The notes below the pieces were generated by a model, which saw nothing but the letters and a program-made list of their open reading frames with translations, made no database searches and was not told the DNA's origin. The position numbers and the translations under genes were made by a program. From Adhaeribacter radiodurans (lineage in GTDB: Bacteria > Bacteroidota > Bacteroidia > Cytophagales > Hymenobacteraceae), in NCBI RefSeq assembly GCF_014075995.1, contig NZ_CP055153.1, positions 248,001 to 312,000 of the forward strand: a stretch of 64,000 nt of DNA. Reading direction: 5' to 3'. Shown here piece after piece: positions 3,430-58,222 of this stretch (positions are counted from its first letter, which is position 1; the number at the start of each line of letters is the position of its first letter).

Positions 3430-3506
3430 AGTTAAGAGTTAAAAGTTTAAGGTTATGAGTGAAAACTCGGGATAACTTTAAACTTTTAACTTTAAACGCA
3501 TAACTT
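3430..3506. repeat. Inverted heptamer array between atpD and atpC
   Basis: Right arm 3472-3506 is five in-phase 7-nt units built on TAAACTT/ATAACTT. Left arm 3430-3464 is five in-phase units of the complementary kind (AGTTAAG, AGTTTAA, GGTTATG). The arms pair over more than 20 bp with a short loop. The structure sits inside a presumed two-gene transcript, so it could set the atpD:atpC ratio by partial termination or processing (inference). Confidence 0.8.
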
Positions 3507-3512
3507 GAAAAA

Positions 3513-3758
3513 ATGTATTTAGAGATTATTACTCCTGATAAAAAAGTATTTGAAGGCGAAGTAGCGGGGGCGAAGTTTCCGGGTACCCAGGGTTCATTTG
3601 AAGTGTTAAATAACCACGCACCTATTATTAGCACCTTGGAGAACGGTGAGATTCGGATTACTACACCTACTGGTCAACAATTCTTTCAGGTGGATGGTGG
3701 AGTGGTAGAGGTGCTAAATAATAAAATTATAGTGCTAGCCGAATCCATTTCTGCATAA
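3513..3758 (+). CDS. atpC: F-type ATP synthase subunit epsilon (short form)
   Basis: Central-stalk subunit coupling gamma rotation to the c-ring. 81 residues, against about 135 in E. coli. The N-terminal beta-sandwich is complete (EIITPDKKVFEGEVAGAKFPG, NHAPIISTLENGEIRI) but the C-terminal two-helix domain, which in many bacteria inhibits ATP hydrolysis, is absent. This short form is common in Bacteroidota. It ends immediately before a strong terminator, closing the atpDC transcript. Confidence 0.95.
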   Translation: MYLEIITPDKKVFEGEVAGAKFPGTQGSFEVLNNHAPIISTLENGEIRITTPTGQQFFQVDGGVVEVLNNKIIVLAESISA

Positions 3759-3777
3759 ATAAGACCCAAGCACAAGT

Positions 3778-3820
3778 AAAATAAAGAACCTCATTCCAAA
3801 AGGATGAGGTTCTTTATTTT
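3778..3820 (+). terminator. atpC intrinsic terminator
   Basis: 17-bp stem of 3778-3794 with 3804-3820 and a 9-nt loop. The right arm ends in a T-rich run. The mirrored A-run means it could also act leftward. Confidence 0.85.
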
Positions 3821-4392
3821 ATAGCACTATAAAATTAGTTAGAGTTTAAATGAAATGCTTGTTTTAAATATATCGGGACTATACTTATACCAACAAAGTA
3901 AAAATTAGCCGGTTTATTTAACTAAGATGGATTATATAAATTAATGTATCATCAAATACTTAAACTTAAAAGTTATTCTCACTCGCCTGAACATACTTGC
4001 CTACTTAAGAGGAGATATATCCAGCAGGTTTTATAAACAAGATTGTCTGAAACCTAAATTAGGGAGGAGGAAAACTTTTAATCCATTTTGGAAGAAGCTA
4101 ACCAGCAGAAAAGAGAAACTTATAAAAACTAATTCGAGTTAATCCCTACTTCAACCAAGAAACTATTTTTTGACACTGCTCTAGCAGGCGCTGCGAACTA
4201 ATTAAATCTTTGCAGGAGAACGAACAAGAGAAGGGCATTGATGATGGCATTAGCCGGAATCTAGCTGGAAGGCAACCTTGTTTTGAGAACTTGTCGGGGT
4301 TGCTTATTCTTATAAGAGGTAATGAGGGCAATAAGGTATAACTTATAAAAGTAGTAAAGATTAGTCTTCAATCCTGGTTTAAACAGATTTTA
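3821..4392. other. Gene-free region between atpC and rplS
   Basis: About 570 nt between two terminators with no convincing gene. A plus-strand frame from about 4177 to 4341 reads some 54 codons without stop, but it follows a TGA and matches no family I recognise. It may be a remnant or chance. Confidence 0.45.
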
Positions 4393-4393
4393 A

Positions 4394-4435
4394 AACAAAA
4401 AAGCTCTGGTTCTTAAGAACCAGAGCTTTTTTGTT
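4394..4435. terminator. Bidirectional terminator, rplS 3' side
   Basis: Perfect 21-bp palindrome centred on 4414/4415, with GCTCTGGTTCTT-type arms flanked by A and T runs on both sides. It lies 50 nt beyond the rplS stop codon. Confidence 0.85.
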
Positions 4436-4484
4436 TATATAACAATTTAAGTACTTATCTAATCTGAAGATAAAAAAGTCTTAA

Positions 4485-4850
4485 TTAAGCAGTTTTAAAA
4501 CGACGCTCTTTGATTCTGGAAGCTTTACCAGAAAGACCACGCAGATAATATAAACGGGCTCTTCTTACTTTACCCCGACGAATAACTTCAATCTTTTCGA
4601 TGTTAGGGGATAATAATGGGAAAATACGCTCCAAACCAATTTGGTTAGATACCTTACGCACTGTAAAAGTTTCGCCGTTTGAATTTGGGTTTTTACGCTG
4701 AATAACTACTCCTTGAAACTGCTGAATCCGCTCTTTGTTACCTTCCCGGATTTTTACGTGGATATTAATGGTATCACCAGCCGCGAAATCAGGAATACCT
4801 GCCCGCTTTTCGTTGTATTCTTGTTGAATGAGGTCTAATAATTGGCTCAT
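4485..4850 (-). CDS. rplS: 50S ribosomal protein L19
   Basis: Structural protein at the 30S-50S interface. 121 residues, typical length, with the conserved [20 protein letters not shown] block, [21 protein letters not shown], and the basic C-terminus around [20 protein letters not shown]. It lies 225 nt below trmD and has its own -7 element (4894-4901), so it is probably transcribed separately from rpsP-rimM-trmD as well as by read-through. Confidence 0.97.
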
Positions 4851-4893
4851 GGCTCTTATAATGGATTATATCGTATCTTCAAAATTCGGACTG

Positions 4894-4901
4894 CAAAGAT
4901 A
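4894..4901 (-). promoter_or_regulatory. -7 promoter element of rplS
   Basis: TATCTTTG on the minus strand matches TAnnTTTG; the leader would be about 38 nt. No clear TTTG is seen 19-21 nt upstream. Confidence 0.6.
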
Positions 4902-4942
4902 GAGAAATTTTCAGATAAAAACAGTTATGATGTATTTTTTAA

Positions 4943-5010
4943 TTGATAATCAGTAATCAACAGCTAACAAACTACAAATAAAAGGTATAAGGATTAAATA
5001 ATTATCAATT
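4943..5010. repeat. Degenerate heptamer array between trmD and rplS
   Basis: 4943-4977 reads as five 7-nt units (TTGATAA, TCAGTAA, TCAACAG, CTAACAA, ACTACAA). AATTGATAAT at 4941-4950 is exactly inverted as ATTATCAATT at 5001-5010, so the ends can pair. More degenerate than the other arrays. Confidence 0.55.
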
Positions 5011-5075
5011 AGAAAGTACTATTGATGCCCACTTTTACTTTTCGTTTCTGAAGAACTGAAACTATAGCTAATTGC

Positions 5076-5750
5076 CTAATTTAGTAAATCTGGACGACGT
5101 TGTTGAGTACGGGCAACGGCTTGCTCAAAGCGCCATTGGTCAATTTTAGGCGTATCTCCTGATAGTAAAATACTTGGTACAGCCCACCCATTATAATCAG
5201 CCGGACGAGTATAAACCGGAGGGGCAAGTAAACCATCCTGAAAAGAATCAGTTAAAGCAGAAGATTCATCGTTTAAAACGCCGGGCAAAATCCGAATGAT
5301 GGCATCTGTTAAAACCGCCGCTCCCAACTCACCACCCGAAAGTACATAGTCTCCAATACTAATTTCGTGCGTTACAAAGTGCTCACGCACTCGTTCATCC
5401 ACGCCTTTGTAATGGCCACATAAAATGATAACGTTTTGCAGCAAGGAAAATCTATTTACCGTATTCTGGTTCAGCGTTACTCCATCAGGAGTCATGTAGA
5501 TAACGGCATCGTAGGAGCGCTGGGCTTTTAGTTGATCTAAGCACTTTGCAATGGGTTCAATCATCATAACCATGCCGGCTCCTCCGCCAAATGCATAATC
5601 ATCAATCTGGCCGTGTTTATTAATGGCAAATTGGCGTAAATCATGCACATGCACTTCAACTAAACCCTTTTGCTGAGCACGTTTTAAAATAGAGTGATTG
5701 AACGGGCTTTCCAGTAAATCGGGCTGGCAACTTATAATATCAAATCGCAT
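5076..5750 (-). CDS. trmD: tRNA (guanine-37-N1)-methyltransferase
   Basis: Methylates G37 of tRNAs reading CNN codons, preventing +1 frameshifting. 224 residues. SPOUT trefoil-knot motifs are present: [27 protein letters not shown], and [20 protein letters not shown], with the SAM-binding glycine-rich loop. The start overlaps the end of rimM by 11 nt, which indicates translational coupling in the rpsP-rimM-trmD operon. Confidence 0.96.
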
Positions 5751-6309
5751 CTTCGTCGCGTTCTTCCTCGGATGGATTACCAGGTTGAGTGTACACGTCT
5801 ACTAAACCTTCGGGCAGGTTCATGTATAACTTTTGTTCTGTTTTATCTGCCCGAATTATTAAATCTTCCTGCATGGGAATTAATACTTCCACACCTTTGT
5901 AGTCCATGGCTAGTAAATCCTGATGCGGTAACTCAAATAATTCTTTAATAACACCGAGTTCCCCTAAGGTTTCATCCACTATGGTATAGCCAATTAAATC
6001 ATGGTAGTAAAACTGATCTTCGTCGAGTTCCGGTAAAGAGTTGAGTGGGAGATACAACGATACGCCTTTTAATCTTTCGGCTTGCTCTATAGTATCCGTA
6101 TCTTCAAATTTAAGTAAAAAACGGCCTTTGGCTTGCGGGTCAATGGACTGAATAAAAAAAGGAACCAGTTTTCCGTTGATAAGCAGGAAAACTGATTCCA
6201 ATTCTTCGTAATCTTCCGGGTAATCTACATCAAAAAATGCAATTACCTGTCCTTTGATACCATGCGTCCGGAGGATGTAACCTAATTGGTAACAGGCATC
6301 AATGTTCAT
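5740..6309 (-). CDS. rimM: 16S rRNA processing protein RimM
   Basis: Ribosome-maturation factor that binds S19 during assembly of the 30S head. 189 residues. N-terminal RimM barrel ([20 protein letters not shown], residues about 6-25) and C-terminal PRC-type barrel ([20 protein letters not shown], then [20 protein letters not shown]). A short acidic tail ([11 protein letters not shown]) overlaps trmD. It starts 12 nt after rpsP, so the genes are co-transcribed. Confidence 0.95.
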
Positions 6310-6321
6310 GGTAAAAAATAA

Positions 6322-6855
6322 TTAAGCTTGTTCTTCTGCCGCAGGAGCTTCAGTTGCATCTTCAGCCGGGGCAGCTGGTTCTGCTGCTTTTGCAGCATCG
6401 GCAGCCCGTTTGCGAAGAGCTTCAGCCCGAGCTTCGTTAATTTTACGCTCGTTCTCTAAAGCAGTTTTAGCAGCATCTGATTTCTTCTGGCTCAAAGTAT
6501 CGCGTTTACCTTGGATTTTCGCTTCTTTCTCGTCTTTCCAGGTTTGGAATTTAGAATCAGCTTGTTCTTGAGTTATAGCGCCTTTGGCAACACCAATTTG
6601 TAAATGCTTTTTGAACAGTATTCCTGTATACGATAACATTGCTTTTACCGTATCTGTAGGTTGTGCACCATCCATTACCCACTTAAAAGCCTTATCCTGA
6701 TCGAAATTAATCGATGCTGGGTTCGTATTGGGGTTGTAAGTACCTAACTTCTCAATAAATTTACCATCACGTGGTGCTCTTGAGTCTGCTACAACAATAT
6801 CGTACATTGCAGCTTTTTTGCGGCCTCTGCGGGCCAGTCTGATTTTAACAGGCAT
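6322..6855 (-). CDS. rpsP: 30S ribosomal protein S16 with C-terminal extension
   Basis: Early-assembly protein of the small subunit. Residues 1 to about 80 are canonical S16 (MPVKIRLARRGRKKAAMYDI, RDGKFIEKLGTYNPNT). The protein then continues for about 95 residues, against a usual total of 80-90, in a charged helical segment ending in an Ala/Glu/Pro-rich tail (AAEPAAPAEDATEAPAAEEQ). Extended S16 is widespread in Bacteroidota; the function of the tail is unknown to me. First gene of the rpsP-rimM-trmD operon. Confidence 0.96.
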   Translation of the reverse strand: MPVKIRLARRGRKKAAMYDIVVADSRAPRDGKFIEKLGTYNPNTNPASINFDQDKAFKWVMDGAQPTDTVKAMLSYTGILFKKHLQIGVAKGAITQEQADSKFQTWKDEKEAKIQGKRDTLSQKKSDAAKTALENERKINEARAEALRKRAADAAKAAEPAAPAEDATEAPAAEEQA

Positions 6856-6910
6856 ATTATAAAACTAACGTTTGTTAAGCGCCGGAACCCGTCCGGCTTT
6901 TTTGAGTTTG

Positions 6911-6918
6911 CAAAGATA
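6911..6918 (-). promoter_or_regulatory. -7 promoter element of the rpsP operon
   Basis: TATCTTTG on the minus strand, a full match to TAnnTTTG. Start near 6904 gives a leader of about 49 nt. A GC-rich hairpin (GCCGG pairing with CCGGC, about 6881-6897) lies close to the start site and could be a leader structure. Confidence 0.65.
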
Positions 6919-6975
6919 AGGAATATTTTTATGAAAGTGGAAAGAGTGTGTAATTATTGAAGCTTTTTGCCTTAA

Positions 6976-7704
6976 TTATAACCAGAAGTGATACACGTTC
7001 TCCCGGTTTTTAAGAATAAAACCACTTTTCTCGTAAAACCGGCAAGCCGCCTGGTTACGTCTTTGTGTAGATACGAGTACTTGTTGGCATCCATAGGAGT
7101 AGAATTTATGCAAAGCAATTTCCAGTAATTGTGTTCCAATACCCTGCCGGCGATTTTGTTCCTCTACCGCAAACAAGCCGATTTGACCTGTTTTATTTTT
7201 TTCGCTTAAAGTAATAAAGCCAATAATTACGTCCTCCAGCCGATACACTACAACCTCGCGGGCTACTTTATTATTAATTGAATTTTGAAGCCAAGCGGTA
7301 TATAACTTCTCAAACTCCTGATTTTTAAAATTAGGATCTAGATTAAATCGGGAATAGACGCCGCTTTGTAAGGCTAATTGCTGCAAATCGGTGGGTAGTA
7401 CTGCATTGGAGTAAGATTGAATAGCGGCGTTTGTGTTATTAATTACTAAATGATTAGTCGAAAGCTGAGTAGTGTAGGTTACTTTTTCATCTGCTAACCA
7501 ACCCCCAGCTTGTTCGGCAACAATATTTAATAAAGTATTATCTGGATCTACTGACCAATAAACGAGGCGAAAGCCCTGTTGTTTTAAGTTTAAGAGCAGC
7601 TTTTCTAAATGAGCCGGGCTCATACTGGAGGAGGTAATACGAGCGACTTTATAACCAAAAGTGAAAGTATCCCAAGGTAAATGCTCGTAAAGGTTTTCCA
7701 CCAT
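6976..7704 (-). CDS. GNAT N-acetyltransferase, WecD/RffC-like
   Basis: Probably acetylates the amino group of a dTDP-4-amino-4,6-dideoxy sugar with acetyl-CoA. 242 residues. The N-terminal half contains the LPWDTFTFGYKVARI segment typical of TDP-fucosamine acetyltransferases. The C-terminal GNAT fold carries the acetyl-CoA loop RRQGIGTQLL followed by AACRFYEKSGF. It overlaps the upstream GT2 gene by one base (TAATG). A WecE-like aminotransferase, which would make its substrate, lies divergently 1.1 kb away. The sugar-specific role is inferred from this pairing. Confidence 0.8.
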   Translation of the reverse strand: MVENLYEHLPWDTFTFGYKVARITSSSMSPAHLEKLLLNLKQQGFRLVYWSVDPDNTLLNIVAEQAGGWLADEKVTYTTQLSTNHLVINNTNAAIQSYSNAVLPTDLQQLALQSGVYSRFNLDPNFKNQEFEKLYTAWLQNSINNKVAREVVVYRLEDVIIGFITLSEKNKTGQIGLFAVEEQNRRQGIGTQLLEIALHKFYSYGCQQVLVSTQRRNQAACRFYEKSGFILKNRENVYHFWL

Positions 7705-8630
7705 TAAATAATGACAGCTTTAAAATTTACTTTCTTCTCAATCTGATAGCATGGTTTATTTCTTTTGTTTCCGAATGTTTTAAATAAGTTGAAACCAATT
7801 ATGCTCAGAAAAAAAACTGAGCCAAGTAAAAAGATACCCCATGTGTAGGTTGTAGCAATTGGGAAATGATTTTGGGCATAAAGATTTACTAAAACAAGTA
7901 AAATTCCGGTAAGAAGCATAACTGAAATATCTATTTGCAGCGGGTTATAGCCGTTGAAAAATAAAACTGAGGCTGCCAATTTTATATTTTTCCCGAAACT
8001 GTAAGAGCTTTCTCCGGCAGGACGTTTTTGATGTTCAATCTCCAGAATAGCGCTACGGAAACCAACCTTTTGAACCATCATTGGAAAGTAATAAGCTCGA
8101 TCGTTTTTCTGACAAATAGCAGTAATTACATCGCGATGGTATAGACCGAAGTTACCAATGCGGCTATCAAATGGCAGGTTGGTTAGAAAAGTTAATACCC
8201 GATTAAAAACTTGCGAAAAAAAAATTTTCAGCCGAGAATGCTTCTTGTTGTTACGTTGGGCTAACACAATTTTATAACCTTCTCGGGCTTTTAAAAGCAT
8301 TTGGGGAATTTCGAGTGGATTGTCCTGTAGGTCGCAGTCTAGTACTACCACCCATTGCCCGGTACTAAATTTTAAACCGGCGCTAATAGCCCGATGCTGA
8401 CCAAAATTCCGGCTCAATTTAATACCTTTTACCTGCGGCCAACGTTTTGCATTTTGTTCAATTTTACTCCAGCCAGCATCCGGGCTGCCATCATCTACTA
8501 AAATAATTTCATAAGAAGAGGTTAAAGTCCGGAGAACCTGACTAATATTGGCTACCAATAAATCTACTAATTCTGCTGCCCCGTAAACCGGGCTTACAAC
8601 AGAAATAAAGGGAGTATTGGGTTCTGACAT
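7704..8630 (-). CDS. Family 2 glycosyltransferase with two C-terminal membrane helices (DPM/GtrB-like)
   Basis: Likely transfers a sugar from a nucleotide donor to polyprenyl phosphate at the inner membrane. About 308 residues from the ATG at 8630. GT-A motifs: ISVVSPVYGAAELV, IILVDDGSPD, VVLDCDLQDNP (DxD) and SRNFGQHRAISAG. Two hydrophobic helices follow near the C-terminus, as in GtrB/ArnC-type enzymes. An upstream TTG at 8651 is in frame, but a -7 element (8649-8656) overlaps it, which favours 8630. A downstream GT-C transferase (10027) could use the lipid-linked product (inference). Confidence 0.85.
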   Translation of the reverse strand: MSEPNTPFISVVSPVYGAAELVDLLVANISQVLRTLTSSYEIILVDDGSPDAGWSKIEQNAKRWPQVKGIKLSRNFGQHRAISAGLKFSTGQWVVVLDCDLQDNPLEIPQMLLKAREGYKIVLAQRNNKKHSRLKIFFSQVFNRVLTFLTNLPFDSRIGNFGLYHRDVITAICQKNDRAYYFPMMVQKVGFRSAILEIEHQKRPAGESSYSFGKNIKLAASVLFFNGYNPLQIDISVMLLTGILLVLVNLYAQNHFPIATTYTWGIFLLGSVFFLSIIGFNLFKTFGNKRNKPCYQIEKKVNFKAVII

Positions 8631-8648
8631 GCACAAAACTTGTTTTAC

Positions 8649-12535: not shown

Positions 12536-13237
12536 TTAACTCGTTTCTGGTAGCATATTTTTAAATAATGCCCAAGGATGGTTTTCCGGGGGTAAAGCTC
12601 TTACAAGCATTTTCTCCTGCCGGATTGGATGAATAAATTCGAGACTGTACGCGTGCAGGCAAATACTTTTATCGGGTAGTAAAGTAGGCGCTCCGTACTT
12701 AACATCGCCCACTATCGCACTTTTTTGAGTGGCTAACTGAACCCGAATTTGATGTGGCCTACCTGTTACTGGTTTTACCCGCAGCAAATAATAATCTTGT
12801 GCCTGGGTTATAATTTGGTAGCTTAACTCTGCCCGTAAACTTTTAGGTACTTCTTTCGTGTGAGCTTTGGAAATATTACGGCTTTCGTCCTTTGTTAACC
12901 AATGCACCAAATGTGCCTGCTCCGCTATGGGCTTACGAGCTGTTATAGCTAAATACGTTTTTTGGATTTTATTTTGTCGGAATAATTCATTTAATCGGGT
13001 AAGGGCTTTAGAAGTTTTGGCTAATAAAACCACTCCGCTCACAGGGCGGTCTAAACGGTGAACAACCCCGGCAAACACATTACCCGTTTTCTGATATTTT
13101 TCTTTTAAATATTGTTTAATTAGTTCAGATAAGGGAACATCACCGGTTTCGTCGCCTTGTACCAATAAACCAGCTGGCTTGTTAATTACAATTAAATGAT
13201 TGTCTTCGTACAATACTAATCGGCCAAAATCAGTCAT
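12536..13237 (-). CDS. RluA-family 23S rRNA/tRNA pseudouridine synthase
   Basis: Isomerises uridine to pseudouridine in RNA. About 233 residues from ATG 13237. Catalytic motif VVHRLDRPVSGVVLLAKTSK with the nucleophilic Asp, then the substrate-site segment RPHQIRVQLA. No S4 domain, so of the RluA/RluC catalytic-only kind; exact target unknown. The frame can be extended upstream to a TTG at 13303, but those codons are made of a heptamer repeat array (13247-13281) and have no family counterpart, so 13237 is preferred. Confidence 0.88.
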   Translation of the reverse strand: MTDFGRLVLYEDNHLIVINKPAGLLVQGDETGDVPLSELIKQYLKEKYQKTGNVFAGVVHRLDRPVSGVVLLAKTSKALTRLNELFRQNKIQKTYLAITARKPIAEQAHLVHWLTKDESRNISKAHTKEVPKSLRAELSYQIITQAQDYYLLRVKPVTGRPHQIRVQLATQKSAIVGDVKYGAPTLLPDKSICLHAYSLEFIHPIRQEKMLVRALPPENHPWALFKNMLPETS

Positions 13238-13246
13238 GTTTATTGA

Positions 13247-13281
13247 TTCACAGTCCACAGTCGATAGACCATAGACCATAG
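13247..13281. repeat. Heptamer array upstream of the RluA-type gene
   Basis: Five in-phase 7-nt units (TTCACAG, TCCACAG, TCGATAG, and ACCATAG twice). Same word family as the pair at 23133-23345. It sits directly before the start codon of the pseudouridine synthase. Confidence 0.8.
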
Positions 13282-13301
13282 TTTTAGTTAAGTCGAGGAT
13301 C

Positions 13302-13357
13302 AATTATTTATCCAATAAATAATTCTGTGGACAGACTTATTTATTGGATAAATAATT
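13302..13357. repeat. 21-bp perfect inverted repeat
   Basis: 13302-13322 and 13337-13357 are exact reverse complements (TATTTATTGGATAAATA-type arms) around a 14-nt loop. AT-rich, without a following T-run, so not a typical terminator. Lies between the panB 3' end and the RluA-type gene, next to two heptamer arrays. Confidence 0.85.
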
Positions 13358-13382: not shown

Positions 13383-13424
13383 ACCTTTCAACTTTATAAC
13401 CTGAAAATTGTAACCTGCAACTAA
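13383..13424. repeat. Heptamer array overlapping the panB 3' end
   Basis: TAACCTG at 13397 and again at 13411, spaced by exactly two units, with AACTTTA and CAACTAA in near-phase (one 1-nt slip). The last unit overlaps the panB stop codon. No inverted partner found nearby. Confidence 0.55.
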
Positions 13425-14239: not shown

Positions 14240-14249
14240 GAGCAGGGGA

Positions 14250-14425
14250 ATTAAAATTAGAAATTATGCATTAGAAATTTCCTTAACTACTTTTTATAAA
14301 TTATGTTTCTTCCGGATTTTGCTATACCATTTAAGCAAAATAAAAGAGCCTCTTTCACTAACAGTAAAAGAGGCGTAATATTAAGCGTTAATTTCTAATT
14401 TTTAATTTCTAATTCATAATTTCTG
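14250..14425. repeat. Inverted heptamer arms flanking a terminator
   Basis: Left arm 14250-14281 has in-phase ATTAGAA, ATTATGC and ATTAGAA. Right arm 14393-14425 has the complementary TTCTAAT, TTTTAAT and TCATAAT. The lptD terminator stem (14348-14374) lies between the arms, so arms plus terminator could form one large branched hairpin. Confidence 0.8.
14343..14374 (-). terminator. Intrinsic terminator of the LptD-like gene
   Basis: GCCTCTTT (14348-14355) pairs with AAAGAGGC (14367-14374), followed on the minus strand by a T-rich tract. Confidence 0.75.
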
Positions 14426-14430
14426 TACTT

Positions 14431-18972: not shown

Positions 18973-18978
18973 GGATTC

Positions 18979-19093
18979 AAGTTTTAAATTCTACGTTTTA
19001 GGTTATATGTTCTACGTTACAGATTTTTGATTTTAACAAAATTTTGTTTGATTTTACCTACAACTTACAACCTATAAACTCTAACTTAAAAAT
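18979..19093. repeat. Heptamer arrays before the MlaD-gene terminator
   Basis: Left arm 18979-19027 is seven in-phase units (AAGTTTT, ACGTTTT, AGGTTAT, ATGTTCT, ACGTTAC and variants). Right arm 19059-19086 has the opposite orientation (TACAACT, TATAAAC, TCTAACT). The right arm abuts the terminator stem. Confidence 0.75.
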
Positions 19094-19115
19094 CCGCCAC
19101 CCGGCGGATTTTTTA
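19089..19115 (+). terminator. Intrinsic terminator of the amidase-MlaD operon
   Basis: AATCCGCC (19091-19098) pairs with GGCGGATT (19103-19110), followed by a T-run. Confidence 0.85.
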
Positions 19116-19134
19116 TATCATTCCAAATCTATGT

Positions 19135-20769
19135 ATGGAGCCTGATATTAACTTTAACAAAAACGATGACCTTTTAAAACAGCAGGTTTATCAGCTTACA
19201 AACCGGCTGAAGAAAGTTTACCTGGGCGGAGGAGCTAACCGCCTGCAAGCGCAGCGCGATAAAGGTAAATTAACCGCCCGGGAGCGAATACAGTACTTAT
19301 TAGATGAGGGAGCCGAATTTTTAGAAATTGGAGCTTTGGCTGGAGAAGACATGTACCCGGAACATGGCGGCTGCCCCAGTGCCGGCGTGGTAGTAGTAAT
19401 GGGTTACGTAAAAGGTAGGCAGTGCGTAGTAGTAGCCAACGATGCCAGCGTGAAAGCCGGAGCCTGGTTCCCAATAACTGCCAAAAAGAATCTGAGGGCT
19501 CAGGAAATTGCCATAGAAAACAAGCTTCCTATTATTTATTTAGTAGACAGCGCCGGCGTTTACTTGCCTATGCAGGACGAAATTTTCCCGGATAAAGAAC
19601 ATTTTGGCCGCATTTTCCGGAACAACGCCGTAATGTCGGCAATGGGCATTATTCAGATTTCGGCAATTATGGGAAGTTGCGTAGCGGGCGGAGCTTATTT
19701 ACCTATAATGTCGGACGAGGCCATGATTGTGGACCAGACGGGTTCAATTTTTTTGGCGGGTTCTTATTTAGTAAAAGCGGCTATTGGTGAATCGGTAGAT
19801 AACGAAACTTTAGGCGGTGCCACCACGCACAGCGAAATTTCCGGCGTAACCGATTATAAATTTCAAACGGATCAGGAATGTCTCGATGCAATCCGGAACA
19901 TTTTAGATAAAATTGGCGATAATCCTAAAGCTGGGTTCAACCGCGTTACACCTGCGCCTCCAAAACTAAACCCAGCCGAAATTTACGGTTTGCTGCCGGT
20001 TGATCGCGTGAAGCCTTATGATATGCTGGAAATAATCCGGCGTTTAGTAGATAACTCCGATTTTGAATCTTACAAAGAATTATACGGCCAAACTTTAATC
20101 TGCGGCCTGGCCCGGATAGATGGTTGGGCCATAGGCATTGTGGCCAATCAGCGGAAAATTGTAAAGTCTAAAAAAGGCGAAATGCAGATGGGTGGCGTTA
20201 TTTATTCCGATTCGGCTGATAAAGCTGCGCGTTTTATCATGAATTGTAACCAGAAAAAAATACCGCTGATTTTTCTACAGGATGTTTCCGGGTTTATGGT
20301 GGGTAGTAAAGCCGAGCACGGCGGTATTATTAAAGATGGCGCTAAAATGGTGAATGCCATGGCTAATTCGGTGGTGCCAAAATTTACATTTATTATTGGT
20401 AATTCTTACGGAGCGGGCAATTACGCCATGTGCGGCAAGGCTTACGACCCGCGTTTAATTTTTGCCTGGCCTACTGCCCAAATAGCTGTGATGAGCGGAG
20501 CCGCGGCAGCTAATACCTTATTACAAATTCAGATGGCTTCTTTAAAAAGCAAAGGAGAAACTATTACTCCTGCAGCCGAGAAAGAATTACTGGAGAAAAT
20601 TACTTCCAGTTATAACGAACAGCTTTCTCCGTACTACGCGGCAGCCCGCTTGTGGGTAGATGGCATTATTGATCCTTTGGAAACCCGGCAGGTAATTTCG
20701 CTGGGCATTGCGGCAGCTAACCAGGCACCTATTGAAAAGCCGTTTAACGTGGGAATTATTCAAACCTAA
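19135..20769 (+). CDS. Acyl-CoA carboxylase carboxyltransferase (beta) subunit
   Basis: Transfers the carboxyl group from biotin to an acyl-CoA. 544 residues with paired crotonase-like carboxyltransferase domains. Closest in pattern to methylcrotonyl-CoA carboxylase beta: KLTARERIQYLLDEG, GGAYLPIMSDEAMIVD, LQDVSGFMVGSKAEHGGI, and GNSYGAGNYAMCGKAYDPR. Substrate (methylcrotonyl-, propionyl- or geranyl-CoA) cannot be fixed from motifs alone. No biotin carboxylase or biotin-carrier gene is adjacent. Heptamer arrays follow the stop. Confidence 0.88.
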   Translation: MEPDINFNKNDDLLKQQVYQLTNRLKKVYLGGGANRLQAQRDKGKLTARERIQYLLDEGAEFLEIGALAGEDMYPEHGGCPSAGVVVVMGYVKGRQCVVVANDASVKAGAWFPITAKKNLRAQEIAIENKLPIIYLVDSAGVYLPMQDEIFPDKEHFGRIFRNNAVMSAMGIIQISAIMGSCVAGGAYLPIMSDEAMIVDQTGSIFLAGSYLVKAAIGESVDNETLGGATTHSEISGVTDYKFQTDQECLDAIRNILDKIGDNPKAGFNRVTPAPPKLNPAEIYGLLPVDRVKPYDMLEIIRRLVDNSDFESYKELYGQTLICGLARIDGWAIGIVANQRKIVKSKKGEMQMGGVIYSDSADKAARFIMNCNQKKIPLIFLQDVSGFMVGSKAEHGGIIKDGAKMVNAMANSVVPKFTFIIGNSYGAGNYAMCGKAYDPRLIFAWPTAQIAVMSGAAAANTLLQIQMASLKSKGETITPAAEKELLEKITSSYNEQLSPYYAAARLWVDGIIDPLETRQVISLGIAAANQAPIEKPFNVGIIQT

Positions 20770-20773
20770 AATA

Positions 20774-21032
20774 ATTAGAAATTAAAAATTAGAAATTATG
20801 AATTTAGAGTTCTGACTTTCTGATTTTTTTATAACTATATAGTTGTTAGTGGATTATATTTTTAATACTTGCTTTAATCTTATTATTTTACTCTACTAAT
20901 AGAAATTCTATTATCCAGACAGCAACAAAAAGGAAACATAACGTTTAATTAAATTTGTTAAGATGAATTAAAAGTTAGAAAACGGGATAAATTTAATTTC
21001 TAATTTCTAATTCATAATTTCTAATTCATATT
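20774..21032. repeat. Inverted heptamer arms between carboxylase and SirB1-type genes
   Basis: Left arm 20774-20808: five in-phase units (ATTAGAA, ATTAAAA, ATTATGA, ATTTAGA). Right arm 20991-21032: six in-phase complementary units (TTCTAAT, TCATAAT, TCATATT). The arms are about 180 nt apart and share their word with 14250-14425. The right arm ends 10 nt before the next start codon. Confidence 0.85.
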
Positions 21033-21041
21033 TTACAAAGC

Positions 21042-23132: not shown

Positions 23133-23345
23133 TTCATAGTCGATAGTCCATGGTCAACAGGCTATAGATAAAAGAATATAGTTGATGGTTGCTGGTTTAA
23201 AATAATGTGGCCCAAAGCTTTTTAAAAATAGTAGGCCTATTTTATTAAAATTGTGAAGCGCTGTTTAAAATAAATCATCTCTTTTTTAACCATCCAACAA
23301 ATTTATCCTGAATTCTATGGACTGTGGACTATCGACCATGGACTA
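23133..23345. repeat. Inverted heptamer arms between MarC-type gene and hemE
   Basis: Left arm 23133-23167: five in-phase units (TTCATAG, TCGATAG, TCCATGG, TCAACAG, GCTATAG). Right arm 23315-23345: complementary units (CTATGGA, CTGTGGA, CTATCGA, CCATGGA). Same word family as 13247-13281. The arms span nearly the entire intergenic region. Confidence 0.85.
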
Positions 23346-47385: not shown

Positions 47386-47896
47386 GGACACTGCTCATTG
47401 TATTTTCCTGAAAAAAGTAAATTGTAGCTGAAGGAATGATTCGCTTTATTCTTTGAAGGCTTTTCAAGTCTCTAGGAGCAGTACTGATGCGTTTCAACTG
47501 CCTAAGTTTGCCTCATGGCCGGCGGGCCTCGTTTAGCTCTCTCGCACTCGCTATCCTTCCTTTCCTCCTTATGTCGGAATTCTGCTGCGCAGGATCAGAA
47601 CCTTAGAAGGCCCTCCACAGCCAAACTGGTGTCAGTTTTTTTAATTCTTACTATGGCATTCTTATTATGGCGCGGAAGTTTCTTCCGTGTCATGCTTTTA
47701 AACTACTTTAGGTATTTTGTAAAGCGTTCCTGTTAGCCCACTATCTTGCCAGCATGAACAGTATAGACACGAAAGTAAATCCGCGACATAGCATGGGTTC
47801 TTTTGGGATACGCGGTAAACTTTGTTTTTTATATTATGCTACGCCACTTTTCTGAACATCGGATAGCTAATAAGTTTTCTGAATTCAAATTGGTAT
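47386..47896. other. Gene-free region with an atypical GC-rich block
   Basis: About 510 nt downstream of the response regulator. 47500-47640 is GC-richer than its surroundings and holds a frame (47515-47736) that I judge not to be a real gene. A short stem CGGAA/TTCCG lies near 47679-47693. It may be a relic of a mobile element, but no ends or transposase are visible. Confidence 0.4.
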
Positions 47897-47938
47897 TAGT
47901 TGCTTGTTGCTAGAAGCTAGCTTAGGTTCTCTGTTTGT
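47897..47938. repeat. Heptamer array before the beta-barrel gene 3' end
   Basis: In-phase units TAGTTGC, TTGTTGC, TAGAAGC, TAGCTTA, GGTTCTC and TGTTTGT. The first two match the word at 50835-50881. No inverted partner nearby. Confidence 0.65.
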
Positions 47939-50834: not shown

Positions 50835-50881
50835 TACCTGCTGGTGGCTGTTATTAGTTTAGCAACAAGCACCAGCAAGTA
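50835..50881. repeat. Heptamer hairpin between protease and inhibitor genes
   Basis: Left arm TACCTGC, TGGTGGC, TGTTATT (50835-50855); right arm AGCAACA, AGCACCA, GCAAGTA (50861-50881). These are three in-phase units each that pair with few mismatches and a 5-nt loop. Same word as 47897-47938. Confidence 0.8.
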
Positions 50882-52934: not shown

Positions 52935-52977
52935 TTTTTCATAGTTTTATTTAAGTACAGTTTTATTTCAGTAGCTT

Positions 52978-55419
52978 TTAATTGCCGCCGGCCCGGTTCA
53001 ACTCTTCCAGGTTAGTATTGCGTTTTTTGGCTTCAAATTTTTCGCCTTTGTTAAAGTTGTAGCGCAGGTTTAAGCGCAAGCTGCGTTGGGCAAAATATTG
53101 ATTTATTTCATTTACGTTACCGTTTACATTAGATGTGCCGGCAAAACGGCGGGTCCGGAAAATATCGGTTACGTTAGCTGATACTTCTAATTTCTTGTTT
53201 AAGAAAGAGCGTTTTAAGCCGGCATCTACGGCCCAGCTTTGTTTGATTTGATACGCCGCATAAACCCGTGGGCCGCGGTAATCCAGGTTTACTTCTAAGC
53301 GCCAATCGCGGGGTAACTGAATATTGTTCGACGATTGCCCATACACGAAAAATTGCTCGTTACGGATAGCTTGATCTGAAATAGCAATAGTGTAACTCTG
53401 ATAGCCTACGGTAAGGTTATTATTCATATCCCATTTAGGCGTAATTTTAATGGGGGCCACCAAAGCGGCATTTATATCTTTAAATTGGTCGCCGTTGCGT
53501 TGCTGAAATACCATTGTATTATTGGCGTTGTTTTGTACTGGTACTTCGGCCATAAAATCCTGGGTATCAGCGTAGCCGATGCTCAACGAGTAAGTGTCTT
53601 TTAACGATTGGGTTACCTGGAACGAATGGGTATATTGAGGTCGTAAATACGGATTGCCTTGCGCCGATGTGTAAGGGTCGATGTAGAAGACAAAAGGATT
53701 TAAATTACCATAATAAGGCCGGTTAATGCGGCGGCTATAGTTATAAGTTACTTTATAATCTTTATTTACCTGCTGCATCAAAAATATGCTCGGGAACCAA
53801 TTAAGGTAATTACGGCTATTTACTGAATCTTTAGTAATGGATTTACCTTCGGAAATGGTTTTCTCGGCGCGTAAACCGCCCTGTATTTTCCATTTTTCGC
53901 CTAAGCTAGTACTGAAGTTAGCATAGGCCGCGTAAATGTTTTCGCGGTAAATGAAATGATTGCTGCGGGTAAAATCCTTTATTAGTTGCTCATCTGCTAC
54001 CTGAAAAAATCGTAAATCATTATCCGACACCACGTGGCTGGCCTTGGCACCGGCTTCGAGTTTGGTTTTTTTTGTAAAAGGTTTGGTATAATCTACTTTA
54101 GCGGAATAAATATTAAAACTGCTGGGGTTATCATTGGCTAAATCTACCAGACTATCTGGCCGAACTTTATTTAAATAGCTAAACTGGTTGGCATAAGTTG
54201 CCTCGTCGTGGTCGTAAATCCGGACAAAATCTAAATCGGCAGCCAGGGTGGTGCCCAAGGTATCTAATTTGCCGAGATAATGCGCGTTAACGGTGCCATT
54301 TGCAAACTTGCCCTGCACCCGATTATTCGTGAATACCCGCTTATTATCCTGTACCTGCGGATGAAACTCACTCAAGTCAGAACGGAAATTGGTATTCATA
54401 TCCTGGTAATAAATGTTTGCCATTACTCCAATACTGTGTTTTTGATTGATGTCGTAATCTGTACCCAACCGGAAGGAAGGAGCCTGGCGGATACCTTTTT
54501 CTTTGGCGGTTTGTTTAAACTGGGTGCTGCTTTCAGGAGAGTTAAATTCCCGGTACAAGCGGGCATCGCGGATGAATATGCGGCGGGCAAAATCGGCATT
54601 TACAAACGAGTTCCATTTGCCTTTTTTCACGTTCAGGTTGCCGCCCATAGAGTACGCGTTCCAGTTGTTGTACTGGTATCCGCCGTAAATACTGCCGTTT
54701 ATGCCGCTAAGCGTATTCTTTTTTAAATTTATGTTAATAATTCCGGCGGTACCTTCGGCGTCGTACTTAGCCGATGGATTCGTAATTAATTCCAGGTCTT
54801 TTAAGTTTTCGGCGGCCATGCCTTGCAACATGGTTTGAAGTTCTTTGCCCGATAAATAAGTCAGTTTTCCATCAATCATAATCCGCACGCCCGACTTGCC
54901 ATTTAACTGAATATTGCCATCCTGATCGACAAACACGCCCGGTGATTTTAGTAAAACATCATAAGCGGTGTTACCCGTAGAAAGCGCCGTACCTTCAATA
55001 CTCACTACCATTTTATCCGGATGATTAGTAATAGTAGGTCGCAGTGCTTGTACGTTTACTTCTTTTAAAACTTGGGTGTCTTCTTTTAGAGTTAAAGTGC
55101 CGAAATCTTTGCTGGGGGTGCTATTGGTAAGTTCAAAAGGAGTTTCTGTTTGCGTGTACCCGATGGCACTTACGCGTAACAGGTATTGCCCGGTAGCCGG
55201 AGCTTTAATTTTAAAATTACCATTTGCTTCCGAAATTCCTCCGTTAACTATCGTCTTACTAGCGGCTTGTACCACTGCCACAGTTGCATAACCCACAATA
55301 GTACCCTTCGCATCTTTTAAAGTACCGGTTAAAAAATTATTATTTTGAGCTATTACCGGAGGTTGGCCAACGATTATTATCCCAATGGTAAATAATAAAA
55401 GTCTGAATATATTTTTCAT
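52978..55419 (-). CDS. TonB-dependent receptor-like outer-membrane protein
   Basis: 813 residues. Signal peptide 1 to about 24, carboxypeptidase-regulatory-like domain (about 28-115), TonB plug (about 120-230, with VDQDGNIQLNGKSGVRIMID), then a long beta-barrel of the OMP_b-brl_3 type ending in LRLNLRYNFNKGEKFE. Probably imports a ligand or is a signalling receptor; no SusD partner adjacent, so not a classical glycan utilisation locus. Monocistronic. Confidence 0.92.
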   Translation of the reverse strand: MKNIFRLLLFTIGIIIVGQPPVIAQNNNFLTGTLKDAKGTIVGYATVAVVQAASKTIVNGGISEANGNFKIKAPATGQYLLRVSAIGYTQTETPFELTNSTPSKDFGTLTLKEDTQVLKEVNVQALRPTITNHPDKMVVSIEGTALSTGNTAYDVLLKSPGVFVDQDGNIQLNGKSGVRIMIDGKLTYLSGKELQTMLQGMAAENLKDLELITNPSAKYDAEGTAGIININLKKNTLSGINGSIYGGYQYNNWNAYSMGGNLNVKKGKWNSFVNADFARRIFIRDARLYREFNSPESSTQFKQTAKEKGIRQAPSFRLGTDYDINQKHSIGVMANIYYQDMNTNFRSDLSEFHPQVQDNKRVFTNNRVQGKFANGTVNAHYLGKLDTLGTTLAADLDFVRIYDHDEATYANQFSYLNKVRPDSLVDLANDNPSSFNIYSAKVDYTKPFTKKTKLEAGAKASHVVSDNDLRFFQVADEQLIKDFTRSNHFIYRENIYAAYANFSTSLGEKWKIQGGLRAEKTISEGKSITKDSVNSRNYLNWFPSIFLMQQVNKDYKVTYNYSRRINRPYYGNLNPFVFYIDPYTSAQGNPYLRPQYTHSFQVTQSLKDTYSLSIGYADTQDFMAEVPVQNNANNTMVFQQRNGDQFKDINAALVAPIKITPKWDMNNNLTVGYQSYTIAISDQAIRNEQFFVYGQSSNNIQLPRDWRLEVNLDYRGPRVYAAYQIKQSWAVDAGLKRSFLNKKLEVSANVTDIFRTRRFAGTSNVNGNVNEINQYFAQRSLRLNLRYNFNKGEKFEAKKRNTNLEELNRAGGN

Positions 55420-55994
55420 GGTTTTATAAGGTAACGCGGTTTGAAATTTACTTTTTCTGCTGCTGTTTCTGTTTGGGATAATCTAAAAAATGGAACCCCA
55501 AGTGGATGAACAGCACAAACATAATAAAAGGTACTATGTAAAGCAAGGTACTAAGTGACAAATAGTATTATATATTTTTATAAAGTGTGTTTTTAGCTCA
55601 TAAAACTAGTTTTTAGGTAAAAAATATTTTTGAACAAGCCGAAATTTTGCTAAAAAGCAGGAAGGAGACTTAAAGAATGAGAACTAAAGTGAAAGAACGA
55701 AACAAACCTGTCAACGAAGCGAATCTTAATTTGAGAGCGCAGGGATGAATAAAAGTAAATCTTAAATAAAGTAGAAGGTAAATAGCTCAGTAGCAATAAA
55801 ATGAAATTGTATAAATTTAATTCAGTAAATATTAGATACTAAGTAAAGTGCAATTTATAATTTATAGAATGCACATGCAGGTTCAGGATTTTAGTTATTT
55901 AAAATGCTTCTTGTTAATTTAATCCATTCTTTATAAATTAGTGATTTACAATTAATTTAGGTTCTTATATTTGAATAAAATTTACTATTAATGC
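55420..55994. other. Gene-free region upstream of the GAF gene
   Basis: 575 AT-rich nt with no gene. A plus-strand -7 element TATATTTG at 55966-55973 precedes the GAF gene. No arrays recognised. Confidence 0.5.
55966..55973 (+). promoter_or_regulatory. -7 promoter element of the GAF gene
   Basis: TATATTTG, full match to TAnnTTTG, 21 nt before the ATG. Confidence 0.55.
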
Positions 55995-56741
55995 ATGACC
56001 ACGCTCCATTACAACACTGCTCACACATTGGAAGTTGATAAAGAAAATTTACGGTTACAAGCTCTGAATAAGTATAATATATTAGATACTCCCGCAGAGG
56101 AAGAGTTCGATCATATAGTAACTTTGGCTTCTTTTATCTGCGGTACTCCTATATCTTTGATTAGCCTGATTTCAGATAAACGTCAGTGGTTTAAAGCTAA
56201 ACTAGGAATTACAGAAGCCGAAACTCCGCGTGAACTATCTTTTTGCCAGTACGCTATTCAAAGCGATGATATTCTGGAAATACCCGATACCTTAGGCGAC
56301 ATCCGGTTTTACAGTAATCCCTTCGTTACCGGAAATCCTAATATCCGCTATTATGCTGGCGCACCTCTTGTTACTAATGAGGGAAATAGGCTGGGTACTT
56401 TATGCGTGATAGATACAGTACCGCGCGAACTTTCCGAAGCTCAGAAAATGGCCCTGGCAACTTTATCGGAACAGGTGGTAGCGCACTTAGAATTACGCCT
56501 GAAAAAGCAGGAAGTTGAAGAAGAGAAGCAACAACTTAAAGTTGTAAATCAGAGGTTGGATGAGGTAATGACTTTTGTGAATAAGCAATTACCGGATTCT
56601 ATCCGCGATTTGCAAAAGGCAGCAGAGCAGCTTTCGCAGGATGAAGAAAATAACAACTGCCTAGAATCTGAAAGTGTCCGGTTAGTAAAAAATAATATCT
56701 CTAACCTCCAGAATATCTTAGCTAAAATACAGCAGGGTTAA
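55995..56741 (+). CDS. GAF-domain protein
   Basis: 248 residues. The GAF domain covers about 25-170 (LNKYNILDTPAEEEFDHIV, SLISDKRQWFKAKLGI, FCQYAIQSDDILEIPDT, and YAGAPLVTNEGNRLGTLCVID). This type is usually fused to histidine kinases or cyclases, but here only a coiled coil and helical tail follow, so no output domain is visible. Possibly a stand-alone redox/ligand sensor acting on another protein. Monocistronic. Confidence 0.88.
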   Translation: MTTLHYNTAHTLEVDKENLRLQALNKYNILDTPAEEEFDHIVTLASFICGTPISLISLISDKRQWFKAKLGITEAETPRELSFCQYAIQSDDILEIPDTLGDIRFYSNPFVTGNPNIRYYAGAPLVTNEGNRLGTLCVIDTVPRELSEAQKMALATLSEQVVAHLELRLKKQEVEEEKQQLKVVNQRLDEVMTFVNKQLPDSIRDLQKAAEQLSQDEENNNCLESESVRLVKNNISNLQNILAKIQQG

Positions 56742-57067
56742 CCTCTAAGAAGAATGGTAGCAGGTTAATTAAGTAAATTGGCAGAACTAATTTACTATAT
56801 TGAATGCGGAGATTATTATAGTATAGTTTAAGGACTCAATTTCTTTACTCCAGAAAAGTCTAACATCCAGTAGCTTGATACTTGTATCTTTTTACTTATT
56901 TGTGTTTTAATAAAATTAATTTCTCAGGCTGAAATTTTAAATTTTGAAGGCGGGCGCTTAAGAGAATGAATCTTAAGCGCCCGCCTTCAAAATTTTTGTT
57001 AAAACGGACAACCTTTATCCCGAAAAGAAACTAAAAGTGTCGAAAGCTATTGCAAAAGCGCTACGCC
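56742..57067. other. Intergenic region with a 24-bp stem
   Basis: 326 nt; its main content is the palindrome at 56939-56995. No coding signal. Confidence 0.5.
56939..56995 (+). terminator. 24-bp perfect hairpin, possible terminator
   Basis: 56939-56962 and 56972-56995 are exact reverse complements (GAAGGCGGGCGCTTAAG-type arms) with a 9-nt loop and flanking A/T runs. It lies 200 nt after the GAF gene and 72 nt before the next start, farther from a stop codon than usual. Confidence 0.7.
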
Positions 57068-58144
57068 ATGAATCATTTATTTAGTCCGCTCCAAATAAAA
57101 TCACTTACTTTTAAAAATAGGGTAGTTGTATCGCCGATGTGCCAGTATTCCAGTACGGATGGTTTTGCCAATGACTGGCATTTGGTACATTTAGGCAGCC
57201 GCGCTGTGGGTGGTGCCGCCCTGGTAATTGCCGAAGCAACAGCTGTAAACCCCGAAGGACGTATTACTCCTTATGATCTTGGCATCTGGAAAGATGAGCA
57301 TATTGAGTTTTTACAACGTATTACTTCTTTTATTCACCAGCAAGGTTCAGTAGCGGGTATTCAGTTAGCTCATGCCGGCCGCAAAGCCAGCCGCAACGCT
57401 CCCTGGATGGGTTCTCAACTTTTATCGCCCGATGAAGGTGGTTGGGAAAACATAATGGCTCCTAGCCCCATACCCGTAAGTGAAGACTTACCTGCACCCG
57501 TAGAACTTACTTTAGACCAGATCCGGCAAGTAGTAGCAGATTTTAAAGCCGCAGCCAGTCGCGCTTTAACAGCCGGTTTTAAAGTCATTGAAATTCATGG
57601 AGCCCACGGTTATTTACTGCACGAGTTTGTATCGCCGCTTACCAACCAGCGCACCGATGAATACGGCGGCTCCTTTGAGAACCGAACTCGGTTCATCCGG
57701 GAAGTTGTACAAGCGGTGCAGGAAGTATGGCCATCGGATTTGCCGTTGTTTGTCCGTCTTTCTGCTACTGATTGGGTGCCCGACGAGAACTCCTGGAAAC
57801 TGGAAGATTCTATAACATTAGCGAGCCAGTTAAAAGACTTAGGGGTAGATTTGATTGATTGTTCGTCGGGTGGGAATGTACCGGTGCAGCAGATTAAACC
57901 AGGGCCGGGTTACCAAACTCCCTTTGCGCAAGCTATCCGGGAGCAGGCGGGCATTTTAACCGGAGCCGTTGGTTTAATTACCTCTTCCTTGCAAGCCGAT
58001 CATATTATCCGGACGGGGCAGGCTGATACTGTTATTATTGCCCGGGAGTTTTTACGTGATCCTTATTTTCCTTTAACAGCTGCTTCGGAGTTGCACCAGC
58101 CTATCACCTGGCCGGTACAATACGAACGAGCCAAACCCCGCTGA
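57068..58144 (+). CDS. NADH:flavin oxidoreductase, Old Yellow Enzyme family (YqjM-like)
   Basis: FMN-dependent ene-reductase acting on alpha,beta-unsaturated carbonyls. 358 residues from ATG 57068; an upstream TTG at 57050 is unlikely. YqjM-class marks: C25 in SPMCQYSS, HAGRKAS, EIHGAHGYLLHEF with the two substrate His, and LTNQRTDEYGGSFENRTRF. Monocistronic; the heptamer hairpin follows at its 3' end. Confidence 0.93.
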   Translation: MNHLFSPLQIKSLTFKNRVVVSPMCQYSSTDGFANDWHLVHLGSRAVGGAALVIAEATAVNPEGRITPYDLGIWKDEHIEFLQRITSFIHQQGSVAGIQLAHAGRKASRNAPWMGSQLLSPDEGGWENIMAPSPIPVSEDLPAPVELTLDQIRQVVADFKAAASRALTAGFKVIEIHGAHGYLLHEFVSPLTNQRTDEYGGSFENRTRFIREVVQAVQEVWPSDLPLFVRLSATDWVPDENSWKLEDSITLASQLKDLGVDLIDCSSGGNVPVQQIKPGPGYQTPFAQAIREQAGILTGAVGLITSSLQADHIIRTGQADTVIIAREFLRDPYFPLTAASELHQPITWPVQYERAKPR

Positions 58145-58151
58145 AAGATGC

Positions 58152-58222
58152 TTACCAATTATCATTTACCATTTACCAGAACAAAAATTGGTAAATGGTA
58201 AATGATAGTTGGTAAATGAAAT
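58152..58222. repeat. Heptamer hairpin between convergent OYE and nfi genes
   Basis: Left arm 58152-58179: TTACCAA, TTATCAT, TTACCAT, TTACCAG. Right arm 58188-58222: TTGGTAA, ATGGTAA, ATGATAG, TTGGTAA, ATGAAAT. All in phase, forming a long stem with an 8-nt loop. Occupies almost the whole gap and may act as a bidirectional terminator. Confidence 0.85.

Follow-up and report, generated by a model that had tools for sequence, protein, structure and literature searches.

What places runs of seven-nucleotide units at the edges of unrelated genes, with words that change from site to site and often in two inverted arms? The question is raised by a 64,000-nucleotide stretch of Adhaeribacter radiodurans (the window; G000:C2:248001-312000 of its own genome, G000, which spans 6.94 Mb in two contigs; window GC content 40.5%), in which a sequence-only reading had listed eleven sites of degenerate heptanucleotide arrays and ascribed their constant period and variable words to one generating process. 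From about 2.9 Mb of region sequence analysed in all, the arrays emerge as a real, widespread and fast-evolving repeat system, and the explanation that we favour, at a probability of roughly 40%, is that they are slippage-rewritten, hairpin-forming heptamer elements at gene edges.

The period is not a chance feature of the spacers. The chromosome that carries the window was examined over 1.664 Mb, which contain 1075 spacers (300 kb); in these, arrays repeating at a lag of 7 nt numbered 70, 30 and 8 at score thresholds of 10, 13 and 16, against 5.2, 0.8 and 0 in five dinucleotide shuffles; the excess over shuffled spacers on which the sequence-only reading had staked its case is therefore present. 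Lag 14 gave 47, 22 and 8 arrays and lag 21 gave 23, 7 and 2 at the same thresholds. Smaller excesses were found at lag 8 (15, 5 and 3, against 7.4, 1 and 0 shuffled), lag 16 (14, 7 and 3, against 5, 0.6 and 0), lag 11 (11, 2 and 0, against 2.6, 0.2 and 0) and lag 9 (11, 1 and 0, against 4.6, 0 and 0), and the remaining lags were raised little or not at all. Only seven and its multiples, 14 and 21, stand out as strongly over-represented spacer periodicities in these 1.66 Mb. The arrays are mainly intergenic: a scan of 864 kb found 34 lag-7 arrays in 149 kb of non-coding sequence and 5 in the coding remainder.

Within the spacers, the arrays gather at gene borders. Our set, taken at lag 7 or 14 and a threshold of 10, comprises 87 arrays from 70 spacers of G000, and 86 of these arrays could be placed relative to genes; units inside these arrays do keep strict phase, as had been claimed, although the detector itself selects for lag 7 or 14. 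Twenty of the 86 are no more than 5 nt away from a 3' border, where random placement in the same spacers predicts 3.8 (maximum of 1000 draws, 13), and 14 lie as close to a 5' border, against 3.2 expected (maximum, 9). Genes were called by the length of open reading frames (ORFs), so 5' borders are approximate. Spacers with arrays occur at 0.27 and 0.32 per kb in tandem orientation, 0.18 in convergent and 0.10 in divergent. The near-border set (57 arrays no more than 20 nt from a gene border, in 48 spacers) occupies 27 of 734 5' borders in tandem spacers, compared with only 2 of 346 in divergent ones (Fisher p 0.002). The border need not be that of a gene: in the sister genome G003, by eye, an array begins after a conserved block adjoining the gene at 4850, and so borders other fixed sequence.

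The near-border arrays also share a strand. Read from the gene into the spacer, 48 of the 57 carry more G than C, 8 carry more C than G and one is equal; the rule is weaker at 3' borders (21 to 7) than at 5' borders (27 to 1, with one equal), and counted by spacer it holds by 42 to 6 (p 1e-7). Among triplets conserved at lag 7 in this inward reading, GTT counts 33 and AAC 1, and AGT counts 22 and ACT none. The composition of gene edges does not explain the rule: array-free 3' borders are roughly even (372 with G>C, 328 with C>G), and array-free 5' borders show a milder skew (507 to 257), so that part of the 5' strand bias is background. All 19 near-border arrays of G003, several of them orthologous to G000 arrays, have G>C inward (GTT 9, AAC 0); 540 kb of that genome held 8 lag-7 arrays versus 4 at lag 8. 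Of 80 named Bacteroidota loci, 27 contain near-border arrays, 41 in total, which divide into 36 with G>C and 5 with C>G, or 26 and 3 once Hymenobacteraceae are set aside by record title. Small samples from two further genomes agree weakly with the rule: 400 kb of the distant relative G036 gave 7 near-border arrays (4 G, 2 C, 1 equal; GTT 3, AAC 0), and 100 kb of G110 gave 5 (4 G, 1 equal; GTT 4, AAC 1), with 5 arrays at lag 7 and at most 1 at any other lag except 14.

Beneath the changing words lies a common core. Phase alignment of the 57 near-border arrays yields A/G-G-T-T-(A/T/G)-n-(A/T) with 4.75 bits of information, whereas 200 random-orientation controls reach at most 4.01 bits and 200 column-permuted controls 3.30. 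Mismatch at lag 7 is 0.118 in the three core columns and 0.402 in the remainder, and the top three columns of 200 permuted controls never fell below 0.177. The words ATTAGAA, GTTAAGA, GTTGCAG, GTTGTTC, GTCCATA and GTATTAA are thus variations on one in-phase (R)GTT core whose other four positions vary, with adjacent units differing at 29-57% in each non-core column. The constant period of the sequence-only reading stands, but its variable word went too far, since the words of this genome retain a GTT-type core.

How far the core extends beyond G000 is a separate matter. Four exact copies of RGTTnnn occur as 95 overlapping matches in the window's own genome, versus 2 for the reversed pattern. 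Of 148 genomes searched across the phylum, 79 have at least one match by the same count. Many lack the pattern altogether and some have more matches to its reversed control, which means that RGTT is not a universal core. A template of RTT type, picked once the arrays had been inspected, scores forward in 48 G000 arrays and in reverse in 4, but near the borders of the wider Bacteroidota loci it points neither way (17 forward and 16 reverse, with 8 ties). Only G>C held there; the common feature of those loci is a G-bearing, C-poor strand (AAG, AGT, AGA, TAG) and not GTT itself. Some individual cases deserve mention. Outside the window's class, three genomes of family f22 (G093, G120 and G143) have 354, 143 and 145 RGTTnnn matches, among the highest counts, and G151 of the same family has none. 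Long perfect AGTTTAG and GTTGTTG arrays at G110:C1:870900-871001 and 876132-876205 have a fresh, undegraded look. In Mucilaginibacter flavus (L086 9627-9713), an array after a stop codon runs through the word blocks GTGGTGA (five units), GTTTGCA (five units), GTGAAAA and GTGCAAA, with GT in phase throughout.

Arrays that share a spacer tend to match one another in inverse orientation. Of the 87 arrays, 23 have an inverted partner scoring at least 14 in their own spacer (both arms of a pair are counted, and paired arms are not independent), whereas 4.6 would be expected from other array spacers and direct copies at the same score number only 3; the excess of inverted arms anticipated from the sequence is borne out. 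The same holds for duplex energy. In 15 spacers (13 from G000 and 2 orthologues in G003) whose arms were picked by periodicity and position only, arms of one spacer pair at a mean of -20.9 kcal/mol, against -9.5 kcal/mol with the arms of other spacers.

Comparison of sister genomes indicates rapid turnover. Among 116 orthologous spacers of at least 30 nt in G000 and G003 (threshold 9.5), 91 have no array, 7 have one in G003 only, 10 in G000 only and 8 in both. In the ATP synthase spacer of the window, whose flanking genes are 96% identical on average, the G000 arms are both of the GTTAAGA type and the G003 arms both of the GTTGTTG type (GTTGTTG / AACAACC), and the loops differ. At 14240-14430, ATTAGAA-type arms are recognisable by eye in the six genomes of the genus that were compared, and the loop shares short blocks. 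Within arrays, units at distances 1 to 5 are similar at 0.58, 0.63, 0.57, 0.46 and 0.34 (n=185, 128, 74, 31 and 14), the first two values being inflated by the detector, and between arrays the value is 0.34. This decay with distance is compatible with slippage, as is spacer 944032, in which the left arrays of the two orthologues apparently differ by one unit (7 nt, counted by eye). The proposal of one generating process is supported by the shared period, the prevailing inward strand and the core common to the word classes; of the mechanisms put forward with it, slippage is compatible with these observations, and a templated polymerase or reverse transcriptase is hypothetical.

Of 20 scanned proteins of the window, 18 have a Pfam match, many being core enzymes of an ordinary kind, and a search of the window for Rfam families (at gathering thresholds) and tRNAs found none of either. 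When each of the eleven listed sites was set against 1000 dinucleotide shuffles, eight were significant at p ≤0.005 (3430, 13247, 13383, 14250, 18979, 20774, 23133 and 58152) and two stood at chance level (4943-5010, p 0.117; 50835-50881, p 0.157). The remaining site, a weak GTTGCTT/GTTGCTA repeat in a spacer (47897..47938, no strand assigned), was borderline at a lag-7 score of 8.1 and p 0.013. The spacer orthologous to 4851-5075 has a detected array in G003 and, by eye, similar units in G004. Elsewhere, 47644-47671 holds two near-perfect 14-mers (ATTCTTACTATGGC) in a spacer and is not of the border type. Seven sites had been credited with hairpins; six have clear inverted arms, with complementarity scores of 14.0-24.8 (3430, 14250, 18979, 20774, 23133 and 58152).

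The ATP synthase spacer (3423-3512, 90 nt) illustrates the arrangement. Its left arm of GTTAAGA/GTTAAAA units (3430..3454, +; lag-7 score 11.1) begins 7 nt past the stop of an ATP synthase alpha/beta-family gene, and the inverted partner at 3473..3510 (-; AACTTTA units, lag-7/14 score 14.8) ends 2 nt short of the next called start codon. RNA folding against shuffles covered this spacer (z -7.25) and that at 58145-58225 (z -9.82), which forms a 28-bp RNA stem. The latter is a convergent-spacer hairpin with a TTACCAT left arm (58152..58178, +; score 13.1, inverted partner score 24.8) and a TGGTAAA right arm (58186..58219, -; score 10.8) 6 nt from the stop of an endonuclease V-family gene, and it breaks the inward-G rule. 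At 14256..14279 (+), an ATTAGAA/ATTATGC left arm (score 10.0) faces a TAATTTC right arm (14388..14424, -; score 18.4, inverted partner score 18.8) that lies 6 nt from the stop of an LptD-family gene. A GTTTTAA/GTTCTAC left arm starts 3 nt past a stop codon (18976..19019, +; score 11.2, inverted partner score 14.0), and its ACCTACA/ACTTACA right arm (19056..19084, -; score 10.5) stands directly upstream of a terminator-like hairpin. By eye, arrays occupy this place between stop and hairpin (18973-19134) in both G000 and G003, and none is visible in the counterparts of G001, G004, G005 and G007.

The carboxyltransferase gene that follows (19135-20769) is present in 6 of 8 genomes of the genus including its own, the other five at 85-93% identity, and among the 80 named loci its closest relative is that of Adhaeribacter aerolatus (85%). 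An ATTAGAA/ATTAAAA left arm runs from its stop codon (20770..20819, +; score 16.0, inverted partner score 23.2), and the TAATTTC/TAATTCA right arm lies 7 nt upstream of the next called start (20994..21034, -; score 20.1). Near the start of a minus-strand gene, a GTCGATA/GTCCATG left arm (23136..23197, +) scores 9.0, under the counting threshold of 10, and has similar arrays by eye in G003 and G004 and a weaker one in G007; its CTATGGA/CTATCGA right arm (23315..23345, -; score 10.5, inverted partner score 15.8) is 2 nt from a stop codon. The two other significant sites each consist of one array. That of CACAGTC/GATAGAC units (13247..13281, +; lag-7 score 16.8, equalled by 0 of 1000 shuffles) marks the 5' end of a gene on the minus strand; it falls within the longest, TTG-start reading of ORF 12536-13303, probably in its leader. 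The degenerate array abutting the stop of a ketopantoate hydroxymethyltransferase gene (13383..13424, -; lag-14 score 8.4, p 0.005) has counterparts by eye with AACCTGC/AACTTAT-type units in G003, G007 and G004 and AACAATT-type units in G005.

We propose that such arrays grow, shrink and are rewritten through replication slippage in steps of 7 (and 14) nt, and that both arms are held to one word by template switching from arm to arm (quasi-palindrome correction), by selection that favours their pairing, or by the two together. Keeping the arms on the same word would let the stem survive while the word drifts. The elements would persist just outside coding sequence, where they may do least harm or be of some use as long RNA or DNA hairpins. 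The core and the inward strand could stem from a polymerase that prefers them, from a factor that binds them, or from selection acting on the 5' arm. Several observations weigh against this proposal. Neutral slippage alone predicts neither the shared core nor the inward rule; indeed, none of the explanations that we considered fully covers these two features. No slippage event was seen between strains, arrays being present in both G000 and G003 at only 8 of the 116 spacers, and 400 kb of G036 showed no lag-7 excess at threshold 13 (1 array versus 2 at lag 8). Of the 48 spacers with near-border arrays, 39 hold only one such array, and in 2 of the 15 spacers in the energy comparison (528580 and 4623338) the arms pair no better with each other than with foreign arms. 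Mirrored unit order between arms, which would be expected from simple fold-back copying and in a stem maintained for perfect pairing, has at best weak support: by letters p is 0.60 (26 pairs), the p of 0.0023 obtained by energy is biased because those pairs were chosen for complementarity, and in the bias-free spacers p is 0.075, with 10 of 15 in the expected direction. Selection on sense-strand RNA through G-U pairs is rejected, since the stem is stronger on the sense strand in 8 and on the antisense strand in 12 of 21 tandem pairs, which amounts to no strand preference.

If slippage leaves the core unexplained, a factor that reads it might not. Under this alternative the arrays would be binding sites, in which a DNA- or RNA-binding factor recognizes the (R)GTT core every 7 nt, directionally, at gene borders, with an insulating, anti-antisense or translation-related role; words would vary because only the core is read. 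The information content of a core common to the word classes, its persistence through word change in the ATP synthase spacer and the M. flavus array, and the recurrence of the strand rule in G003 and across Bacteroidota loci all speak for such a factor. However, the factor is hypothetical, cis-matching of the arms is left unexplained, arrays are gained and lost quickly between sisters, and the RTT-core score is directionless in the wider loci, and we regard this account as rather unlikely. The position of many arrays immediately after stop codons, and the folding of both tested spacers far below shuffles, instead recall transcription terminators or stabilisers of mRNA 3' ends, as repetitive extragenic palindromic (REP) sequences are thought to be. 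That role is improbable: arrays use 5' borders about as often as 3' borders, array pairs may by eye enclose or precede terminator-like hairpins, the stems lack a strand preference, and even the divergent spacer 532801 carries an array and its inverted partner. Quadruplexes are rejected, four GG runs occurring in 3 of the 57 near-border arrays and three GGG runs in none.

Two further accounts seek the origin of the arrays in DNA addition or movement. Telomere-like templated addition would append G-strand heptamers to the 3' ends on both sides of a spacer break, from one template, before the ends are joined, giving gene-(GTTnnnn)n ... (nnnnAAC)n-gene. It would cover at once the period, the core, the inward strand and the use of one word with poorly mirrored order in both arms, as well as concerted word change with a new loop. 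Against it, loops share sequence with sisters (14240-14430 and 20770-21041), which is not expected from a single healed break, divergent spacers are poor in border arrays, and no enzyme of this kind is known to us in these bacteria, although no search aimed at one was made; we give it little credence. We think it just as doubtful that the arrays are ends or scars of a mobile element of the REP/BIME (bacterial interspersed mosaic element) or MITE (miniature inverted-repeat transposable element) kind, moved by a transposase of the Y1 or RAYT (REP-associated tyrosine transposase) type. The genome has four Y1_Tnp matches, and 22 of the 87 arrays match a further spacer within the 1.66 Mb over a stretch that continues at least 25 nt past the array, although some reach only the other hairpin arm; for the remaining 65, the spacers searched yielded no match of this kind. 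In the case of spacer 20770-21041, the 51 non-self matches among the 52 listed for its own genome (40 of 104 candidates scored) cover the arms only and not the loop. A mobile element with a shared loop is thus, on both counts, unsupported for most arrays. Dependence on RAYT is rejected: in the four Y1 loci, each of about 3.2 kb, the only lag-7 segments are a short pair in L146 (AAAGTAAAAAGTAAAA, AAATTTTAAATTTTAAA) and no clear heptamer array is present, and G036, G091 and G137 have 26, 33 and 163 overlapping RGTT matches (0, 0 and 17 reversed) and no Y1_Tnp match.

Mobile pieces do join some arrays, which abut one such body or flank another, but they do not account for the arrays. A dispersed element of about 110-130 nt with a conserved body ('alpha'; G000:C2 937612-937716 (+), 939848-939988 (-) and others) has a GTTGTTC-type array beside it in several copies; seven copies were aligned, and there are further matches in G003. 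A REP-like nested palindrome of about 145 nt ('beta'; GCGAGCGTCCTCGCTCGTG ... CACGAGCGAGGACGCTCGC) occurs, in part incompletely, at 17 places in 1.66 Mb (G000:C2 4407317, 4536663, 4602327 and 14 more), and recognisable GTT heptamers flank only four of these by eye. Another palindromic repeat, TATGGCGCGGATTTACTTCC ... GGAAGTAAATCCGCGCCATA, lies at G000:C2 4005840-4006020 and 4369641-4370065 and is also found in G003.

Heptanucleotide repeats are already known in kind. Cyanobacterial short tandemly repeated repetitive (STRR) sequences have a period of 7, and slippage has been proposed for them. Our arrays resemble these and other long simple sequence repeats (LSSRs) in having tandem 7-nt units above chance, mainly intergenic, but differ in that long runs of one unit are typical there and near-perfect copies are not the rule here. 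The STRR analogy drawn by the sequence-only reading is thus correct in kind, and nearer ones are in print. Among the simple repeats of bacteria, units of seven are over-represented, and slippage has been put forward as the cause (Mrazek 2007, as cited in PMC4679880 and PMC4692102); the passages on that study contain no border rule, shared core or cis-matched arms. In Nostoc, the P6b stem of the trnL (tRNA-Leu UAA) intron consists of degenerate 7-nt units (Class I TDNGATT, Class II NNTGAGT); copy number shifts by units, and motif classes are replaced, sometimes with the whole region (PMC3488679, PMC4476775). As here, degenerate 7-nt units on both sides of the stem base pair, although P6b is a single place in a group I intron, whereas our arrays lie in many unrelated spacers, and the window has no tRNA or Rfam match.

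Two other systems come close in position and strand. The GGGAATC / GGGGA(C/T)T repeats of Xanthomonas and Anabaena are intergenic and mostly 0-50 bp from ORFs; those that follow a stop are on the coding strand, those that precede a start on the non-coding one, and divergent genes seldom have them in between; they vary in length and sequence among related species, and inverted repeats and possible stem-loops are mentioned (PMC4692102). They share with our arrays the proximity to borders and the inward G strand, but theirs are G-rich, quadruplex-forming words, in contrast to the many words described here. Direct TAACTGA repeats of Beggiatoaceae, Cyanobacteria and some Bacteroidetes lie just upstream of start codons; of the 14 sets in F. 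litoralis, 12 are intergenic and forward before a start and one is reversed directly after a stop, and other heptamer repeats accompany TAACTGA in spacers of Gramella, Aequorivita and Elizabethkingia (PMC4679880). Their orientation agrees with the inward rule, the reverse complement containing AGTTA, but that study tracks one word, related heptamers are rarely repeated in the BOGUAY genome, and BOGUAY has one indirect repeat to 169 direct sets. Among the titles and abstracts that our literature searches listed as matches, none described, for spacers of Bacteroidota, a border rule obeyed by many words, a common core or arms matched in cis; these features extend a kind of bacterial repeat that has been little studied. 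It is conceivable, if distinctly improbable, that one oriented process, resembling telomere-style addition or a border factor, is common to Bacteroidota and, judging from print, to Xanthomonas, Anabaena and Beggiatoaceae, laying a G-bearing, RGTT-like strand 5' to 3' away from genes, with the single-word heptamers as special cases.

Earlier accounts of heptamers have mostly dealt with one word each and invoked slippage, quadruplexes or a translational regulator. Many words in one genome, under one border and strand rule and one core, and often matched in cis, mean that a single-word or quadruplex explanation is insufficient. The question of why the unit is seven bases long then becomes what reads, or makes, a directional GTT core every seven bases at the edges of genes.

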